Shown one piece after another: positions 14,690 through 64,000 of a stretch of DNA of 64,000 bases (position 1 is its first letter; each line of letters opens with the position of its first letter). Location of the stretch: positions 1 to 64,000 of the forward strand of contig JAJUHC010000013.1 in the NCBI GenBank assembly GCA_029268065.1, written 5' to 3'. The position numbers and the translations under genes are program-made. The notes under the pieces are model-generated. The model worked only from the letters and a program-made list of their open reading frames with translations, was not told where the DNA came from and did no database searches. Source of the stretch: Clostridiales bacterium. GTDB lineage: Bacteria > Bacillota > Clostridia > Oscillospirales > Oscillospiraceae.

Positions 14690-15037
14690 TATTGGTGTGA
14701 GCAAGCCTGTAAGCCGGGTTCTGTCTTGACAGCCATCTGTCTAGGCGCCGCGTTGCCGCTGCGCTCAAGCCACCTCCTCGGGAACGGCCGGGCAGGCCTT
14801 GTCCCCTCCACGGTGTTGCTCCGGATAGAGTTTACAGGGTCGAGTTGTCTCCAATCGACCGGTGAGCTCTTACCTCGCCTTTCCACCCTTACCCGATAAA
14901 CGGGCGGTATATCTCTGTTGCACTTTTCCTGAAGTCGCCTTCGGCGGGCGTTACCCGCTATCCTTGCCCTATGGAGCCCGGACTTTCCTCATGAACGGAC
15001 TTTCGCCCTGCTCACGCGGCTGTCTGGCTTACTCGCG
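14690..15037 (-). ncRNA. rnpB: RNase P RNA, bacterial class A
   Basis: Minus strand reads GTAAGCCAGACAGCCGCG...GGCGAAAGTCCGTTCATGAGGAAAGTCCGGGCTCCATAGGGCAAGG...ACAGAACCCGGCTTACAGGC; 5'/3' GTAAGCC/GGCTTAC pairing; promoter TTGACA-17-TAGAAT at 15071-15043. Confidence 0.95.
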
Positions 15038-36403: not shown

Positions 36404-36695
36404 AAAGCTGAAGAAAGTACTTATTAAATGCAAGGAAGAGAAGAAGTAACACGCCATTTGCCCGCAAAGAGAGCCTCCGTTTGGTGAGAGGGGGAGGGGT
36501 CACGCGTGCGAATACATCTCGGAGCAGCCGCCCGAAAGCGTAAGCGAGTAGGCGCGCGCCGGGTTCGCCCGTTAAAGCGACGGAGTCAAGAACTCCACGA
36601 TGCCGTTATCGCGAGGTAAGGGCAAACCAGAGGTGGTACAGCGTTTATCAACGCCCTCTGCTCGTTTGAGCGGGGGGCTATTATTATTTGGAGTG
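36404..36695 (+). ncRNA. T-box leader (tyrosine)
   Basis: T-box core AGAGGTGGTACAGCG (36629-36643) with CGCCCTCT; terminator GCCCTCTGCTC-GTTT-GAGCGGGGGGC + TATTATTATTT; specifier candidate GAA-TAC-ATCT; directly upstream of tyrS. Confidence 0.9.
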
Positions 36696-54619: not shown

Positions 54620-56797
54620 TCAGAAGTTGATTTTCGAAATGGGAGAGTAATCCTTTATGCTGTAAGAGGATATTCCGTCCGCTGAAACAATATAGAAGCA
54701 GTCTCCTATATAAAGGCCGCGCATATTGTAACCGTACATCGCGCTCGAATCCGCGGAAACCGAAGCCTCCTGTTTAAATCCCTTCTCACGCGAGTAAGAG
54801 TAGACGAGGTATTTGCCGTCGGCGGGGAAGGCGATGATGTTTTTGGCCGCATCCACAAGTATAGCCTTGTGATTATAGCTTGCCTCGGAGTAATAGGTTC
54901 CCTCGATGACGAGCTTGCCTGTTTCCGCCACGTTCTTCGGATCGGAAATATCGAACATGGAAAGCTTCAGGTATCCGGCCTTTCCGCTTTCGGCGTCGGC
55001 GTCGCGTCCCAGCCCGAAAAGCAGACCGTCAGAATAAGGATGCAGATACTGTGAAAAGCCGGGAATTTTCAGTGCGCTGAGGATCCTGGGGTTTGCGGGA
55101 TCGGTAAGGTCTGCGGCAAAGAGAGGGTCAACCTGCCTGAAGGTCACAAAATACGCGATGTCGCCGCTGAACCTTGCCGAATAAACGCGTTCTCCGGGAG
55201 CAAGGTCCTCGATTTTGCCTGTAATTTTCAAGCTTGAATCCAAGGTATAGAGACTGTTGTACTGTTTGCTCTGGGAAACAGAGGACCATGCGGACTTGTC
55301 GGTCCCTCCGACGGTCACGGTATAGGAGTACACGGTTGTGACCATTCTGAAGCTGTTCCCGTGCTCATCCATGGAGAATTGATTCAATACCGAGCCCGGA
55401 ACTGTGCCTTCGGCCTCGAGCGATATGCTTCCGGCCTTCAGGGAAAAACGGTAAAGCTTTGTGGCGCCGGTGTAGGTGCTGCCATCCGTTATGCCTGAAT
55501 ATGCGGTTACATAGAGGTTTGACCTGCTTGCGTAAACCTGGCTGCCGTAGCCGAGCACCGCCTTGTTGGAAACGAGACTTCCGGAGCCTGCAGTATCAAT
55601 ACCTGTAACAATAAGATACTGAGCGGAGCCGCTGCTTTTTTCAGGGTCTATGCCTACCGAAATGTCGCCTTTGGCGATGAGCGAGCCCTCTGTGCCGCAG
55701 TACACCTGAGGGACGAAGGTCTCGGGGCGCTCCCTGACTATTTCTCCGTAAACGCTTTTGTTGGAGATGAGGTACAAAACGCCGTCCACCATTCTTGTTG
55801 ATACAAAAGACCCGTCCTGAGAAAAGGAATTGAGGAGTCTGGGGGAACTCTTGTCGCTGATATCGTAAATATCGGCGGATACAAAGGGCTTTGAATAAGG
55901 CGGACGGATTGAAGGGGCGATAGTTTTGGAATCCGCAGAAGCTTCGGGCGCGGCAGTCATGATATGGTAATCATAGCTGTTTCTGAGAACGATGAGGCGG
56001 TCGCCGGAAACATACATCTCGAAAGCGCTGCTCGACCGTCCGCCGTCTCCGTCCTTTACGCTCCGTGGGAATTGGGAGACGACGGTAAGGGCTCCGTTCT
56101 CAGCTTTGACAATGCTGAGCTTTTCGGACGAAAGCGTGTATATATATTCTCCATCGGTTTTTACTATGTCCGATTCCTGAACGCCTTCTACCTGGATGTT
56201 TGTGTCCGAATAGCCCTGGGAGGAAGCGGCGTCGGCCGCCGGAGCAGCCGCTTTGTTTGACGATTCTGCGCCGCTGGAGGCATATGCCCGCACAGTACTC
56301 TTTTTTTGAAGCTTGGATATTATATTGTACAGTTCGGAATAGTCGCCGCCGCTTGATGAGGCCGGTGCAGGCGATGGGGCCGGCGCCGGCGATGAAGACG
56401 CCTCGGGCGGCGAAGACAGCTCGGACGATGAATGCGAAAGGCTGGAGCTCTGCTCCGGGGAGGGGGCTGCGGAGGGCGCCGTGACATCCGACATCGGAGT
56501 TTCGGCGGAGGGCAGCGTTCCGGTGAAGTTACCGGGGGAAGGCGCGCCCTGCGCCGGCGCGGCGGCAAGGGAACTGTTCCTGCCGCTCTGAATTTGCTTT
56601 GACAGCGGTATGGAGATCGCCGCAATAAGCAAAAAGCAGGCGGCGAAGGGGATGAGCTTCCTGAAATTAAACGGGGATGAACTCCGTTGAGCGGGTTTCG
56701 AGGTCATGACGTTCAGCAAATTAACGACAGAGTTCCGGGATGGACTTACCCTGTCCATTCCGGCTTTGTATTCATTTTTCCAGTCTTCATTTAACAT
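54620..56797 (-). CDS. Membrane-anchored secreted beta-propeller protein (PF09826-like)
   Basis: N-terminal cytosolic stretch + one TM (FRKLIPFAACFLLIAAISIPLS), Pro/Ser-rich linker, then VQESDIVKTDGEYIYTLSSEKLSIVKAENG... beta-propeller. Confidence 0.8.
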   Translation of the reverse strand: MLNEDWKNEYKAGMDRVSPSRNSVVNLLNVMTSKPAQRSSSPFNFRKLIPFAACFLLIAAISIPLSKQIQSGRNSSLAAAPAQGAPSPGNFTGTLPSAETPMSDVTAPSAAPSPEQSSSLSHSSSELSSPPEASSSPAPAPSPAPASSSGGDYSELYNIISKLQKKSTVRAYASSGAESSNKAAAPAADAASSQGYSDTNIQVEGVQESDIVKTDGEYIYTLSSEKLSIVKAENGALTVVSQFPRSVKDGDGGRSSSAFEMYVSGDRLIVLRNSYDYHIMTAAPEASADSKTIAPSIRPPYSKPFVSADIYDISDKSSPRLLNSFSQDGSFVSTRMVDGVLYLISNKSVYGEIVRERPETFVPQVYCGTEGSLIAKGDISVGIDPEKSSGSAQYLIVTGIDTAGSGSLVSNKAVLGYGSQVYASRSNLYVTAYSGITDGSTYTGATKLYRFSLKAGSISLEAEGTVPGSVLNQFSMDEHGNSFRMVTTVYSYTVTVGGTDKSAWSSVSQSKQYNSLYTLDSSLKITGKIEDLAPGERVYSARFSGDIAYFVTFRQVDPLFAADLTDPANPRILSALKIPGFSQYLHPYSDGLLFGLGRDADAESGKAGYLKLSMFDISDPKNVAETGKLVIEGTYYSEASYNHKAILVDAAKNIIAFPADGKYLVYSYSREKGFKQEASVSADSSAMYGYNMRGLYIGDCFYIVSADGISSYSIKDYSPISKINF

Positions 56798-57350
56798 GGT
56801 AATCTCCTTTCAGCTTCTGCTCAAGCGCAGCCCTTGCCCTGAAAAGATGGGACTTGACCGTTGATTCAGGCATTCCGCTTGTTTCGGAAATTTCCTTGAT
56901 AGAAAGGTCCTCGTAATAATACAGGTGAACGCAGAGGCGCTGCTTGGGAGGAAGAGACATAACCGCTTCAAACACGGGCAGTTGGGAACCGTTCGGTTCA
57001 TCGTCGCCCGCGAGATCTCCGCAGTCTTCGATAGGGATGATTTTACGACGCCATGCGGAGCTGTGAAACGACTTGCTGCAATTCACCGCGACACGCAGGA
57101 ACCAGGCTTTTTCATGCTCGGGAGAGGAAAATGAGCGCAGCTTCTTAAGGTACCGGAGAAATACTTCCTGCATAATATCCTCGGCGTCATGTCTGTTGCC
57201 CGTATAGGAATATGCGACGCGGTACACGGCGGATGAGTATTTTTGGATTAGCGTTCCCGGGTCGGCCGACTCGGCTAATTTTATTTCCTCGTTCATAAAA
57301 TCATCCTCACATCTAATACCTTCCGTATATGTAAAAGGTTGCAGCGGCAT
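56787..57350 (-). CDS. ECF RNA polymerase sigma factor
   Basis: YRVAYSYTGNRHDAEDIMQEVFLRYLKKL region 2, LYYYEDLSIKEISETSGMPESTVKSHLFRARAALEQKLK region 4; ends inside the start of the beta-propeller gene. Confidence 0.92.
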   Translation of the reverse strand: MPLQPFTYTEGIRCEDDFMNEEIKLAESADPGTLIQKYSSAVYRVAYSYTGNRHDAEDIMQEVFLRYLKKLRSFSSPEHEKAWFLRVAVNCSKSFHSSAWRRKIIPIEDCGDLAGDDEPNGSQLPVFEAVMSLPPKQRLCVHLYYYEDLSIKEISETSGMPESTVKSHLFRARAALEQKLKGDYHVK

Positions 57351-57415: not shown

Positions 57416-57444
57416 TTGATTTTTGAAGATTATTACTATACAAT
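57416..57444 (+). promoter_or_regulatory. Candidate vegetative promoter for the NRPS gene
   Basis: TTGATT-17-TACAAT in the AT-rich divergent intergenic region. Confidence 0.55.
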
Positions 57445-57497: not shown

Positions 57498-60400
57498 TTG
57501 ATTGATATGGCAGGGGCGCCCGGAGAGCTGTTTCCGCTTTCTTCAAACCAGAAAAACATCTGGGATCTGGAAAGGACCTTTTCCGGGAAATCTATCAATT
57601 CTATAAGTTCAACCATACGCTTTAAAGGCAAAATCGACTTTCTGCTTATGGAAAAAGCACTCAACCAGGTGCTTTTAAACGATATTTCGCTTCGCACTCA
57701 GCTTACAATCAAAGAAGGCGGACCTTGTCAGTACCATGTTCCCTATAAGGAGTCTCGTTTTCCTTTGATCGACCTCTCAATGGCCGATGAAGACGGGATA
57801 AAAAGTTGGGAAGAAGCCGTCACAAGGGAAGCCCTTAATTTTTATGATTCTCCGCTTTACAGGTTCATTCTTATGAAGATCAGGGATGACACGGCGGGGA
57901 TTCTTGTAATTACGCACCATATAATCTCCGACGGCTGGACCCAGGTTTCGCTCTGCAACCGGATAGGACGGGCATATATAGATCTCGCCGCGGGGAGGAA
58001 AAGCGAAGCTGAAACGCTGCCCAGCTATGCTCTTTTCGTAGAGGAAGAGCGCAGATATCTTATGTCGGCGGCCTGTGAGAGGGACGAGGAATACTGGAAA
58101 GGTATAACCGGAAAGGAAAGCGAGCCGGTCTCGCTGAAAAGCGCCAGAGGCTCCTTCATATCTCCCGTAGGAAAGCAAAGGAGTTTCGAGCTGCCTGAGT
58201 GGCTCAACGACGCCGTGTACTCCTATTGCTCTCAAAACAGGATAGCGCCGTTTCTTGTTTTTTATATGGCGCTCGCAGCGTATCTGAAGCGGCGGGGGGC
58301 CGGCGACAGGTTTACGGTAGGCGTTCCTGTTTTTAACCGCTCCAACCATATTTTCAGAAAAACCACGGGGATGTTTGTGAGCACCGTTCCGTTTTGCACT
58401 GAAATATCTGAGGAATGGAGCTTTGACGAATTCAGGGAGCGTCTTGCGGAAAGCTGGCTTGAGCTTCTCCGCCACCAGCGCTTTCCTCTTGAGAGGATAA
58501 GGGCGCTTTCAAATTCGGAAACTCCTCTTTTCAATATAATGCTTTCCTATCAGGATAGCAAGGTTTTAAAAAGCGATTGCGAGCGGATAGATTTTTCAGG
58601 TGTGTGGCACTACGGCGGCTACCAGGCGGAGCAGCTTTGCATACATATAATGAATCTTGAGGATAACCGCCGATATTCGGTTAACTATGAATATCTCGTG
58701 CAGTTTTTTCACGACAGTGAAATAGAAAGGCTGCATTCCTCCATCTGTCATATTTTAGGCGCGGCGCTGAGATCGCCAATGAAACCCCTGGCCGAGCTTC
58801 CGATAACTGCGCCGGAGGAACACAGGCGCGTAGTTTACGATTTCAACGGTACGAACAAACCCTTTTCGTATGTTAATCCGTATGAAATGCTTGTCTCAAA
58901 CTCGTTGGAGCACCCGGACCGCCCGGCGCTGATTTATAAGGGCGATACTATCTCTTACGCCGAGCTCATAAGGCGGGCGGGCAGGGTCGCCGCTGCTCTG
59001 GGAGCTGACGGCGGGCTTTTCGCGACTCTTCTCCCAAGGAGCCCGGAGCTGTATTCGGCTATCGCCGGCATCATGCAGGCCGGGGCGGCATGGTTAATAA
59101 TTTCACCCGATACGCCATACGGAAGAATATTGGAGATTCTGAATCAGAGCGGCGCGAATGCCCTGATTTCGGAGCGTGACGTCATTGAATGCATAGACGG
59201 GCTTAGCGGACTGAGCCTGCCCCTGATCGATATGGGCGCCCTGCCTCCGGCGACGGACACCGTAATTCCCTCTGAACCCGAAGGACTTGCCTACGTCGTG
59301 TATACCTCCGGCAGCACCGGAAGACCGAAGGGCGTCGAGATCACCAGAAAAAACCTGTTGAACTTTTCGCTCGGAGCGGCTCCGCTTTTTCCGGACTCCC
59401 CGATACTCTCCCTGTGCAGCATAGGTTTTGACGCCTTCATACTTGAAAGCGCGGCCGCGATGCTGTGCGGAAAAACGGTTGTGCTGCCCGATGATTCCGA
59501 TCAGGAGGACCCCGCGAGACTCGCCGCACTTATAAAAAGGTACTCGGTAGGTTTTATGGCGATAACCCCGTCCAGACTGGCGGCATACTTAAGGAACCGC
59601 GCGTTTGCAGACAGCCTTTTGGGGGTTAGATCCATAATATGCGGAGGCGAGGCCTTCCCGCAGGAGCTGCTGCGGAACATCCTTCAATTCACAAAAGCAG
59701 ATATTTACAACCAATACGGACCCTCAGAAACAACCGTTGGCGTCAGTTATGCAAGGCTGAACGACGCGCGGGCGATAACCGTGGGAAGGCCCATGGACAA
59801 TTGCCGCCTTTATGTGCTTGACGAAAAGCTGAATCCGCTGCCAGTGGGCGTATACGGCGAACTGTACGTCGGCGGAATGTGCGTCGGCAGGGGATACAGA
59901 GGGGAGCCTTCGCTTACCGCGCAGTCGTTCCTGAACAGTCCGTTCGAACCCGGGGAGAGGTTATACAAAACCGGCGACATAGCGGCATGGACGGAGGACG
60001 GCGAAATCGTGATCTCCGGCAGGCGGGATAGGCAGCTGAAGCTCCGCGGGCTCAGAATAGAACCGCAGGAGATATCCGAGTGCCTGTCAAAGCACCCGTT
60101 TGTGACTGACGCTGCCGTAAGGGTGGTTTCAAAAAACGATCAGCAGCTGCTTATCGCGTACTGCGTAACGTCGCGGCCCGTAGCAGAAACCGAGCTTCTC
60201 GCGTATGCCGCTTCCTATCTGCCCAGGTACATGATACCTGCGCGCGTCATGCTTATCGACGCAATCCCGCTGACTCCTAATGGAAAGACGGATGAGGCGG
60301 CTCTTCCGGAGCCTTCCGACGAAGAAGCCGTGAGCTGCGCCTCCACTCCCTTGCAGGAACAGCTTCTTTTAACATTCAGGAGCGTTTTGGAGAATCCGGG

Positions 60401-63400
60401 CATACACGCCGGCAGCGACTATTTCCTCTGTGGAGGCAACTCACTCAACGCCTTGGAGGCAATCGGCGAAATAGAGGAAAAAACGGGCATACGCCTTCGC
60501 GTTTCGGATCTTTATGCCTGCCGTACTGTCAGGAGGCTCGGAGAATATCTTTCGGGACTATGCCCGGAGTCGCCGTCAGGCCCGAAGCCCAGATACGCGC
60601 TCCCCGAGCTAAAAAAATACGAGCCTACGGATATGCAGAAGAACGTGTATGTCCAATCCTTTATGGACCCGACAAAAATCGCTTACAATATGCCGGGAGC
60701 TTTCAGGCTTGGCTTCAAGCCCGACATCGAGCGTCTTGAAAGCGCGTTTTCCGCGCTTATTGAGGGCGACGACAACTTCCGTACCTCGTTTGTGCGTGAG
60801 GGCGCGAGTATCGCCGCCGTTATCAGCGACAGCGCAGAGTTCAGGCTTGAGCTTCTGGGCGGGAGCAGGGAAGAGGTCTTTTCAGAATTTGTGCGGCCGT
60901 TCGAGCTTTCCAAGGCTCCGCTCATAAGGGCGGCGCTGTGGGAGGATGAATACGGCGGCTGGTTCATGCTTATAGATTGCCATCATATAATCTGCGACGG
61001 CGTAAGCACGCCGCTGATACTTGAGCGCCTTAACAGAATCTACATGGGGGAAGCCTGTTCCGTACCTCTTACCTATAAGCACTACGCCTTTTATCAAAGG
61101 AACGACGGCGAAAGCAATAAAACGGCGGAAGAGTACTGGCTTGGCGTGCTTCAGCCGCTGCCGGAGCCTTTGGATATTCCCTTGGATTCCGCGCGCCCGG
61201 CGGTTTTCGACTACAACGGCTCGCATCTGAGCTTTTCCGTCAATCAGGGAATCGCGGCGCGGATTGACGCCTTCTGTGAAAAACACGGGCTCACGCCCTA
61301 TATGTTCATGCTGGGAGCCTTCGGGATACTCGTTTCCAAAGCTTCCCGGCAAAGGGACCTTGTTGTCGGCATACCTGTCTCGGCCAGAAACCGTCCCGAG
61401 CTGCTGAAGGTATGTGGGATATTTATAAATACCCTTCCCGTAAGGCTGCGGCCGGAAGGGGACATTCTGGCTTACCTCGAGGGCGTCAGGGAAGCCGTCG
61501 TCGGAGCGCTGGACCACCCCGTTCTTCCGCTCGATTCAATCATATCCAGGCTTAACATCCAGCGGAGCCTGTCCAGAAATCCGCTGTATCAGATATTGTT
61601 CTCGATGCGTCCATTGGACGCGGGCTCCTTCACCTTCGGCGGGGAGAGGCTCGAATACATACCTGTTCCGACACGGACTTCAAAGCTCGACCTGTCCTTC
61701 GAAGCCGCAAGAGAAGGGGAAGGATACACGATTTTCGCGGAGTACTGCGCTTCCTTGTTCAGCGAAGAAACGATAAGGCTGTACGGGCGCACCTTTATAA
61801 GCATAATTGAGGAAATGCTGGTTGGAGAGGCATTGTCAGTCGAGGATATCAGCGCGCTCTCGGCCGAAGATAAAAAGAGATTTATCTACGGACCCGGCAG
61901 CGTCTCCGTGGCTTTCGACGATATGCCGATCAACCGGATAATCAAAAGTACCGCCCTCGAAAATCCGGATAAAACCGCCGTCATATGGCACGATGAGAAA
62001 ACGACGTACAGGGAGCTCGATGAAAGGTCGGACGCCGTCGCCGCCCTGCTGATAAGTAAGGGCGTCGTCCGCGGCGACCGTGTGGGGCTTTCATGCATGC
62101 GCACGCCGGATCTTCTGGCCTCCATGCTGGGAATACTGAAGGCGGGAGCGGCCTACGTGCCGTTTTTGACCGATTATCCGGCAGAACGCATAAAGTATAT
62201 GCTTGCAACCGCGGGAGCGCGTCTGCTGCTTTCGGACGAAAGCTGCCGAAACGCACTGCCGTCGGAGCTGTCCTGTCCTGTGGCAACGCTTTCGCAGTGC
62301 GAAGGGGCGGAAGCTCCTGAGTGTTATCAGGAAACGGCGGACCCTATGTACGTCCTGTTCACCTCGGGCTCGACAGGGCAGCCAAAGGGCGTTCAGGTTC
62401 CGCACAGGGCGATAGCCAATCTGCTGGGTTCCGTAAGGGAGCTGATGAGACCGCATAAGGGTCCGGTATTGTGTACGACGAACGTGACCTTTGACATTTT
62501 TGTTACGGAGAGCCTCCTTGCGCTTGCGCAGGGACTTTGCGTAGTGCTCGCGGACGAAGAGGAAATGATGCTTCCGTGGAAGACCGCGGAGCTTATAAGA
62601 AAACATCACACAACCATAGCGCAGTTCACGCCCTCGAGGCTCCAGATGTGTTTGAGCAACGACGCCTTTGCCGCCGCGGCGGATAATATAGAGTTCGTGA
62701 TACTCGTGGGCGAGGCCGTGACGCCACAGCTCGTTGAAAAGTTCAAAAAGCACAGCAGAGGAAGATTTGTGAATATGTACGGCCCTACCGAGGCGGCCGT
62801 CTACGTTACGCAGGGGGAGCTGAGCGCGGGAGAAGCCGTGAATATCGGCGTTCCGCTTAACAACTGCCGCATTTATGTTCTGGACGAGAGAAGGAAACCG
62901 GTAATGCCGACCGCGAGGGGGGAGCTCTACCTTGCCGGAACCTGTCTGGCCGACGGATATGTTTCAAGACCGGACCTCACCGACGCGGTTTTCGTGCCTG
63001 ACCCGTTTTTCGAGGGTCAGAAGATGTACAAAAGCGGCGACAGCGGCAGGCTGCGTTCGGACGGCGTACTGGAATGCTTCGGCAGGCTGGATTCTCAGAT
63101 AAAAATAAACGGAAACAGGGTGGAGCTTGACGAGATAAACCTCGCTATGCTGAACGCGGGGGCAAAGCAGGCGGCCACGGTGGCAATAAGGAATTCCGAC
63201 CAGTCTACGAGCCTTTACGGCTTCGTTTCGCCCGAAAGCATAGACATTCACGAGCTGAAAAGGAGAATAGGCAAAACCCTGCTCCCGTACATGATTCCTG
63301 TTCAAATCATAAAGATGGAGCGACTGCCCTATAATCCGAGCGGCAAAATAGATTTTCCCGCGCTGAAAAACATGATCTCGTCGCAGAAAGAGCCGCAGAT

Positions 63401-64000
63401 GCATACGGCGCCCGCGGATTCAAATCCGGAGGCTGCGGGGGGCGATATCACGCCGGAGCTGCTTATTGATTTGTGGCGGGAAACGCTGGGAATCGAGGGC
63501 TTAAGGCCCGACGTATCGTTTTTTGAGCAGGGAGGCAGCTCTCTCGGCGCGCTCAGCGTCCTGAGCCAGTATTACAACCGAAACCTCATAATGACCATGG
63601 CACAGTTTTATGATAACCCAACCGCGGCCGCTCAGGCCGAATTTTTCGGGTGCCAGCAAAAAGGGGAGCGCCCCGGCAAAAAGGAAACGCGCCTGCGCCC
63701 GAAGTTCCCCTCAAGGGTTCCGGATCCGGTAAAATCGGCGGACATATCTCAAATGAGGAATATACTTCTGACCGGGGCATCCGGGTACCTCGGAGCGCAT
63801 ATTCTCTATTTTCTGCTTGAGGGCCCGGCCGAAAAGGTTATTTGCCCGATGCGGGACGGAAGCAGGGACCGGCTGCTTCAAACTCTCGCATGGTATTTCG
63901 GGGATGAGTGGACAAAAAAAAGCTCTGAGGCCATAGAGGTAATTTGCGGAGATATAACAAAGCCCATGCTTGGGCTCGACGAAGTATCCCGCAGCAGGCT
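57498..64000 (+). CDS. Non-ribosomal peptide synthetase, C-A-T-C-A-T-R (3' end beyond the window)
   Basis: Frame followed line by line from a stop at 57417 through all of module 1, A2 and T2-R, with spot checks in C2: HHIISDGW and GVPVFNRSN (C1), VVYTSGSTGRPKGVE/NQYGPSETTVGVS/YKTGD/NGKTD (A1), DYFLCGGNSLNALE (T1), HHIICDG and GIPVSARNRPELL (C2), LFTSGSTGQPKGVQV/NMYGPTEAAVYVT (A2), FFEQGGSSLGAL (T2), ILLTGASGYLGAHILYFLL (R). Start codon uncertain (TTG 57498 or ATG 57507). Confidence 0.95.
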   Translation, partial: MIDMAGAPGELFPLSSNQKNIWDLERTFSGKSINSISSTIRFKGKIDFLLMEKALNQVLLNDISLRTQLTIKEGGPCQYHVPYKESRFPLIDLSMADEDGIKSWEEAVTREALNFYDSPLYRFILMKIRDDTAGILVITHHIISDGWTQVSLCNRIGRAYIDLAAGRKSEAETLPSYALFVEEERRYLMSAACERDEEYWKGITGKESEPVSLKSARGSFISPVGKQRSFELPEWLNDAVYSYCSQNRIAPFLVFYMALAAYLKRRGAGDRFTVGVPVFNRSNHIFRKTTGMFVSTVPFCTEISEEWSFDEFRERLAESWLELLRHQRFPLERIRALSNSETPLFNIMLSYQDSKVLKSDCERIDFSGVWHYGGYQAEQLCIHIMNLEDNRRYSVNYEYLVQFFHDSEIERLHSSICHILGAALRSPMKPLAELPITAPEEHRRVVYDFNGTNKPFSYVNPYEMLVSNSLEHPDRPALIYKGDTISYAELIRRAGRVAAALGADGGLFATLLPRSPELYSAIAGIMQAGAAWLIISPDTPYGRILEILNQSGANALISERDVIECIDGLSGLSLPLIDMGALPPATDTVIPSEPEGLAYVVYTSGSTGRPKGVEITRKNLLNFSLGAAPLFPDSPILSLCSIGFDAFILESAAAMLCGKTVVLPDDSDQEDPARLAALIKRYSVGFMAITPSRLAAYLRNRAFADSLLGVRSIICGGEAFPQELLRNILQFTKADIYNQYGPSETTVGVSYARLNDARAITVGRPMDNCRLYVLDEKLNPLPVGVYGELYVGGMCVGRGYRGEPSLTAQSFLNSPFEPGERLYKTGDIAAWTEDGEIVISGRRDRQLKLRGLRIEPQEISECLSKHPFVTDAAVRVVSKNDQQLLIAYCVTSRPVAETELLAYAASYLPRYMIPARVMLIDAIPLTPNGKTDEAALPEPSDEEAVSCASTPLQEQLLLTFRSVLENPGIHAGSDYFLCGGNSLNALEAIGEIEEKTGIRLRVSDLYACRTVRRLGEYLSGLCPESPSGPKPRYALPELKKYEPTDMQKNVYVQSFMDPTKIAYNMPGAFRLGFKPDIERLESAFSALIEGDDNFRTSFVREGASIAAVISDSAEFRLELLGGSREEVFSEFVRPFELSKAPLIRAALWEDEYGGWFMLIDCHHIICDGVSTPLILERLNRIYMGEACSVPLTYKHYAFYQRNDGESNKTAEEYWLGVLQPLPEPLDIPLDSARPAVFDYNGSHLSFSVNQGIAARIDAFCEKHGLTPYMFMLGAFGILVSKASRQRDLVVGIPVSARNRPELLKVCGIFINTLPVRLRPEGDILAYLEGVREAVVGALDHPVLPLDSIISRLNIQRSLSRNPLYQILFSMRPLDAGSFTFGGERLEYIPVPTRTSKLDLSFEAAREGEGYTIFAEYCASLFSEETIRLYGRTFISIIEEMLVGEALSVEDISALSAEDKKRFIYGPGSVSVAFDDMPINRIIKSTALENPDKTAVIWHDEKTTYRELDERSDAVAALLISKGVVRGDRVGLSCMRTPDLLASMLGILKAGAAYVPFLTDYPAERIKYMLATAGARLLLSDESCRNALPSELSCPVATLSQCEGAEAPECYQETADPMYVLFTSGSTGQPKGVQVPHRAIANLLGSVRELMRPHKGPVLCTTNVTFDIFVTESLLALAQGLCVVLADEEEMMLPWKTAELIRKHHTTIAQFTPSRLQMCLSNDAFAAAADNIEFVILVGEAVTPQLVEKFKKHSRGRFVNMYGPTEAAVYVTQGELSAGEAVNIGVPLNNCRIYVLDERRKPVMPTARGELYLAGTCLADGYVSRPDLTDAVFVPDPFFEGQKMYKSGDSGRLRSDGVLECFGRLDSQIKINGNRVELDEINLAMLNAGAKQAATVAIRNSDQSTSLYGFVSPESIDIHELKRRIGKTLLPYMIPVQIIKMERLPYNPSGKIDFPALKNMISSQKEPQMHTAPADSNPEAAGGDITPELLIDLWRETLGIEGLRPDVSFFEQGGSSLGALSVLSQYYNRNLIMTMAQFYDNPTAAAQAEFFGCQQKGERPGKKETRLRPKFPSRVPDPVKSADISQMRNILLTGASGYLGAHILYFLLEGPAEKVICPMRDGSRDRLLQTLAWYFGDEWTKKSSEAIEVICGDITKPMLGLDEVSRSR

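Follow-up and report, generated by a model that had tools for sequence, protein, structure and literature searches.

The rup nonribosomal peptide synthetase (NRPS) has the domain order C-A-T-C-A-T-R (C, condensation; A, adenylation; T, carrier; R, terminal reductase). N-acylated dipeptide aldehydes from gut NRPSs, ruminopeptin and related compounds, have already been published (PMC12327764, PMC8518294). The diffusible signal factor (DSF) cluster holds the acyl-CoA ligase RpfB, the synthase RpfF, the kinase RpfC and the HD-GYP phosphodiesterase RpfG in one gene cluster (PMC3749722), and the DSF fatty-acid signal has been reported to bind the kinase (PMC5391125). Here we describe a locus of a gut-type Clostridiales bacterium (Oscillospiraceae) which shares features of both and begins near the end of the analysed window, i.e. 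the first 64,000 bases of the 72,090-bp contig JAJUHC010000013.1 from a draft genome of 2.44 Mb (89% complete). The locus is a six-gene operon in the order NRPS, seven-transmembrane (7TM) histidine kinase, REC/HD-GYP regulator, acyl-AMP ligase, acyl carrier protein (ACP) and phosphopantetheinyl transferase (PPTase), and we lean towards the view that its product is an N-acyl dipeptide aldehyde, which the operon probably senses as well.

An earlier note on this DNA, made from the window, claimed a plus-strand frame open from about 57.4 kb to the window edge, encoding C1-A1-T1-C2-A2-T2 and the start of a reductase. Both parts of this claim were confirmed, as no stop interrupts the frame between 57423 and the edge at 64000, and Pfam (Condensation, AMP-binding and PP-binding, each twice, and NAD_binding_4), motifs and domain limits place C-A-T-C-A-T-R in one protein. 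The stop codon was found at contig position 64823, 823 bases beyond the window edge, with neither a frameshift nor an internal stop before it, giving 2466 codons when counted from the upstream TTG at 57423. The frame is far beyond chance, since full-length identity was 80% with a genus-mate (G004) and 38–52% with species of other genera. The core motifs are complete (HHIISDG, HHIICDG, TSGSTG twice, GGNSL, GGSSL and TGASGYLG), and following the contig past position 64000, as the note had proposed, completed the R domain with its Ser/Thr-Tyr-Lys triad intact: the catalytic Tyr and Lys (VYIRTK) lie just outside the window, with codons at 64251 and 64263, and are preceded by STAS. The equivalents of S, T, Y and K were invariant across 11 homologues, and the closest solved structures to the R domain are NRPS R domains, the AusA reductase among them. 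Translation probably starts at TTG 57498, where the note begins the gene, or at ATG 57507, the exact codon being uncertain; TTG 57423 is an unlikely start because it is covered by a promoter-like site, both hexamers of which are conserved in G004. No riboswitch was found in a search upstream of the operon.

The two condensation domains differ in type. In profile comparisons C2 gave a strong match to the LCL type (TycC6, 396 bits, versus 111 for the RzmA starter), whereas C1 matched everything more weakly and scored nearly level for LCL and starter types (178 versus 151). A tree of 86 C domains placed all C2 domains of the family with TycC6, LgrA and Txo2, while all C1 domains were separated from the LCL side by a 99/96 branch, together with EntF, the sole acyl-starter-type reference there, which sits on a long branch. 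The RzmA and CDA starters gave good but not the best scores with C1, and in fold comparison starter and LCL structures scored about equally. Mean column identity within the family was 61% for C1 and 54% for C2. No NRPS module was found upstream of the operon, where an extracytoplasmic function (ECF) sigma factor and a beta-propeller gene lie on the opposite strand instead; the outcome that the note had counted against its reading, an LCL-type C1 supplied by a preceding module, did not occur. In the Faecalicatena loci L129, L130 and L131 the C1 active-site motif is HHIIADA or HHIAADA, with Ala replacing the Gly of HHxxxDG.

The product of the NRPS is likely to be an N-acyl dipeptide aldehyde, as the note had also suggested, since R is intact, C1 falls outside the LCL group, there is no upstream module, and the operon contains a ligase, an ACP and a PPTase. 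A-domain codes were extracted by motif alone; the A1 code is nearly invariant among relatives (DA[LI]x[ILV]CQ[VI][AG]K) and the A2 code varies from lineage to lineage, and thus the aldehyde residue seems to be the variable part of the product. The note's further suggestion of a novel small-molecule locus held only in part, as the compound class is already published and the NRPS taken alone is a further example of known chemistry; what is unusual is the linkage to the kinase/HD-GYP pair, which lies outside the window. A literature search found no description of an NRPS linked to such a pair, which is weak evidence given its incomplete coverage.

We assessed this linkage in two samples that were chosen without reference to the kinase, and loci that had been found via the kinase (L228–L246) were excluded from the counts. 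The first sample consisted of R-domain matches in 391 genomes of the class, from which 20 regions were taken, with 12 in the C1 clade and eight outside it by tree. The kinase gene directly followed the NRPS gene in 12/12 clade loci and 0/8 non-clade loci, with the HD-GYP gene present in nine of the 12. The second sample consisted of matches to the C1 profile in 399 genomes of the phylum, with a cut placed post hoc at a visible score gap; both genes were downstream in 12/13 matches of at least 416 bits, and in none of the seven examined matches of at most 353 bits. Pooled, the kinase followed the NRPS in 24 of 25 C1-clade loci versus 0 of 15 others (Fisher p = 4e-10, uncorrected for shared ancestry), and the HD-GYP regulator came next after the kinase in 21 of the 25. 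Domain order alone was insufficient to predict the pair, which is absent from C-A-C-A-R loci outside the clade. In addition, searching the acyl-ligase alignment against 84,980 species genomes gave 80 loci, and the order NRPS, kinase, HD-GYP, ligase, ACP was present in 15/15 ligase loci with at least 39% identity (one contig starts inside the kinase). This order was kept down to 39–50% identity and across several genera, among them Faecalicatena contorta, F. orotica, F. faecalis and Cuneatibacter, and a sixteenth locus, in Christensenellaceae, has the order ligase, ACP, PPTase, NRPS, kinase. Within the genus of our genome the distribution is patchy, with the operon present in one of four genus-mates.

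The catalytic motifs of the pair are conserved. The phospho-accepting His was invariant in 36 kinases, HDxGK was present in 43/43 regulators, HHExxDGxGYP or a near form in all of them, and the receiver Asp was kept throughout; in the regulator of our operon the HD-GYP phosphodiesterase motifs read HDVGKI and HHERIDGLGYP. In the predicted model of the kinase seven helices lie in the membrane, accompanied by a PAS fold, a long hairpin of helices and the ATPase, and a fold search with the whole kinase gave matches to the PAS-kinase part only and none that inform on a ligand of the 7TM part. As the genome encodes 14 GGDEF and three HD-GYP proteins, cyclic di-GMP (c-di-GMP) signalling exists in this bacterium. 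The closest solved structures to the acyl ligase are acyl-CoA ligases, with the fatty acyl-AMP ligase (FAAL) structure 3pbk far down the list, and the label FAAL was dropped for this reason. The operon genes co-diverge in the nearest relatives, with distance correlations of 0.78–0.96; these were rejected as proof of coevolution between sensor and product, since every operon gene correlates.

Synthase anatomy, intact catalytic motifs and conserved linkage can be read from the sequence, and a working mechanism can be built on them. The PPTase would activate the carriers, C1 would join an acyl group to the amino acid selected by A1, C2 would add the residue selected by A2, and R would use NAD(P)H to set the chain free as an aldehyde, all steps for which the encoded domains provide support. 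The fatty acid for the acyl cap would be activated by the acyl-AMP ligase and, since a dedicated carrier accompanies this ligase, would most likely be transferred to the ACP. For the remaining steps we infer that the lipophilic product would leave the cell by export or diffusion and bind the 7TM sensor of the linked kinase, from which phosphotransfer would switch the HD-GYP phosphodiesterase and alter the level of c-di-GMP. More tentatively, and with somewhat less than even confidence, the same may apply widely in Clostridia, where one- and two-module NRPSs of the C1 clade would make lipo-amino-acid or lipo-dipeptide aldehydes (or acids) as ligands of the adjacent kinase, with the HD-GYP partner lowering c-di-GMP.

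Enzymes of the C1 clade include one-module C-A-T-R as well as two-module forms, and release may be catalysed by R, a thioesterase or an unrelated reductase-like domain, while some enzymes have no release domain. The clade NRPSs of L230, L231, L234, L284 and L285 have a C-terminal region of about 380 amino acids (aa) that no Pfam family matches well and that weakly resembles PigE in NCBIfam; this region is perhaps a second, unrelated aldehyde-forming reductase. In L181, L183, L184 and L281, all one-module C-A-T-R, the 7TM region of the kinase is replaced by a HAMP domain together with an N-terminal part that has no Pfam match, and here the sensor type may follow the product type. Genome G1111 has two clade synthases (L289 and L291), the latter preceded by a hybrid histidine kinase. 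A similar kinase/HD-GYP pair is also preceded by a 555-aa protein without Pfam match that is not an NRPS (L237:3111-4775, L238:3818-5482, L235:4179-5828); by eye it has a PilZ-like motif (FKRRYSR ... DINTAG) and it may bind c-di-GMP.

Several points weigh against an operon that makes and senses its own aldehyde. None of these kinases has a known ligand, and linkage of genes does not demonstrate binding, so that the kinase could sense something else. An aldehyde is not universal, as a thioesterase, or no release domain at all, stands at the end of some linked synthases. Among one-module relatives, several have a kinase whose sensor is of the HAMP type instead of 7TM. In three clade loci the kinase is present without a neighbouring HD-GYP gene, and L291 has neither. 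By sequence, the acyl ligase cannot be clearly placed among FAALs, and the starter assignment of C1 comes from its exclusion from the LCL group rather than from nesting among acyl-starter references.

The chief rival reading is that the cell excretes the product as an ordinary protease inhibitor, similar to ruminopeptin, and that the pair senses another cue (surface, envelope state or nutrients), co-ordinating production with lifestyle. This is quite possible, if doubtful: cathepsins and proteasomes are inhibited by aldehydes of this acylated dipeptide kind, compounds of the ruminopeptin type are already known from the gut (PMC8518294, PMC12327764), and the sensor type is not the same in all clusters. 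However, the regulator lacks a DNA-binding output for direct control of the operon, and the pair tracks the C1 clade regardless of module number or release domain, which goes beyond the needs of a general cue. It is very improbable that C1 is vestigial and that a free dipeptide aldehyde cyclises to a pyrazinone as with AusA. While AusA is the closest curated NRPS model across module 2 and R, C1 retains HHIISDG, shows higher conservation within the family than C2 does, and is accompanied by the acyl ligase and the ACP. By established chemistry, no pyrazinone would be expected from a product with an acylated N-terminus. Least credible of all is that the pair is a chance neighbour or hitchhiker, functionally unconnected to the NRPS; the richness of the genome in other c-di-GMP proteins would allow for it, but the linkage contrast holds over many families of a phylum, and the short gaps or gene overlaps and the codivergence within the operon also speak against it.

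The coordinates of the operon and of the domains of the NRPS are given in Table 1. All operon genes are on one strand with short gaps or overlaps between them, and the run is terminated by a HAD hydrolase gene on the opposite strand. The ECF sigma factor and the large beta-propeller protein are encoded at 54620–57350 of the window (minus strand), divergent from the operon, and this pair is kept there in G004. Elsewhere in the window we noted an RNase P RNA (14694–15035, minus strand) and a T-box leader (36424–36661) immediately upstream of a tyrosyl-tRNA synthetase-like gene.

Table 1. Features of the NRPS operon; contig and window positions share one numbering, and the window ends at 64000.
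Feature	Position	Strand	Basis
Putative sigma-70 promoter, TTGATT-17-TACAAT	57416–57444	+	Consensus scan; match to consensus only
NRPS gene, C-A-T-C-A-T-R	57498 (or 57507)–64000 in window, stop at contig 64823	+	Frame, Pfam
C1, first condensation domain, HHIISDG at 57915–57935	57522–58871	+	Pfam/profile limits, C-domain tree
A1, adenylation domain, 10-residue code DALAICQVGK by motif	58875–60317	+	Pfam/profile limits
T1, carrier domain, GGNSL, Ser at 60441–60443	60363–60551	+	Pfam, motif
C2, LCL-type condensation domain, HHIICDG	60606–61922	+	Profiles, C-domain tree
A2, adenylation domain, code about DITQ(I)(V)MVYK	61926–63377	+	Pfam/profile limits, motif
T2, carrier domain, GGSSL, Ser at 63540–63542	63460–63660 (approximate limits)	+	Pfam, motif
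R, terminal reductase, TGASGYLG at 63771–63794	63699–64000, continuing to contig 64802	+	Pfam, motif
7TM-PAS histidine kinase, 625 aa, PF16927 N-terminal	contig 64845–66722	+	Pfam
REC-DUF3369-HD-GYP regulator	contig 66713–68158	+	Pfam
Acyl-AMP ligase	contig, ending 69812	+	Pfam
ACP, stand-alone, 76 aa	contig 69835–70065	+	Pfam
PPTase	contig 70062–70604	+	Pfam

Research on dipeptide aldehydes from the gut has dealt with their inhibition of proteases, both of the host and of microbes. The near-universal link of the clade to the kinase and c-di-GMP offers a concrete, testable role for the producer itself, as the product may be a signal that is both made and sensed by the bacteria. If true, gut 'protease inhibitors' of this class would be autoinducers first, the operon would represent a counterpart of DSF quorum sensing based on nonribosomal peptide synthesis, and a ligand class would be suggested for some 7TM histidine kinases. 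The cultured carriers (Faecalicatena contorta, F. orotica, F. faecalis and Cuneatibacter) make the idea testable now.

Compared with described systems, the NRPS resembles those of ruminopeptin (rup, Ruminococcus bromii) and of other clusters such as BGC0001686, in which gut Clostridia use an NRPS to make N-acylated dipeptide aldehydes. With AusA of Staphylococcus it shares two modules and a terminal R, module 2 and R giving the top NCBIfam match (1057 bits, below the cut-off of 2500), and the operon PPTase resembles AusB; unlike the enzyme described here, which begins with C and is accompanied by an acyl ligase and an ACP, AusA begins with A and yields pyrazinones. The kinase matches the HisKA_7TM family (PF16927) over the full 7TM region (122 bits) with a predicted 7TM-PAS-HisKA-HATPase layout, and differs from other members in its linkage to one NRPS class. 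As in the DSF/Rpf system of Xanthomonas, the genes for an acyl ligase and a REC-HD-GYP phosphodiesterase adjoin those for a membrane histidine kinase and for an enzyme that makes a lipophilic molecule, but RpfF is of the crotonase type whereas the synthase here is an NRPS, and the kinase here has a 7TM-PAS input. The operon thus resembles DSF/Rpf in its logic, with an NRPS replacing RpfF, by analogy rather than by membership of that system.

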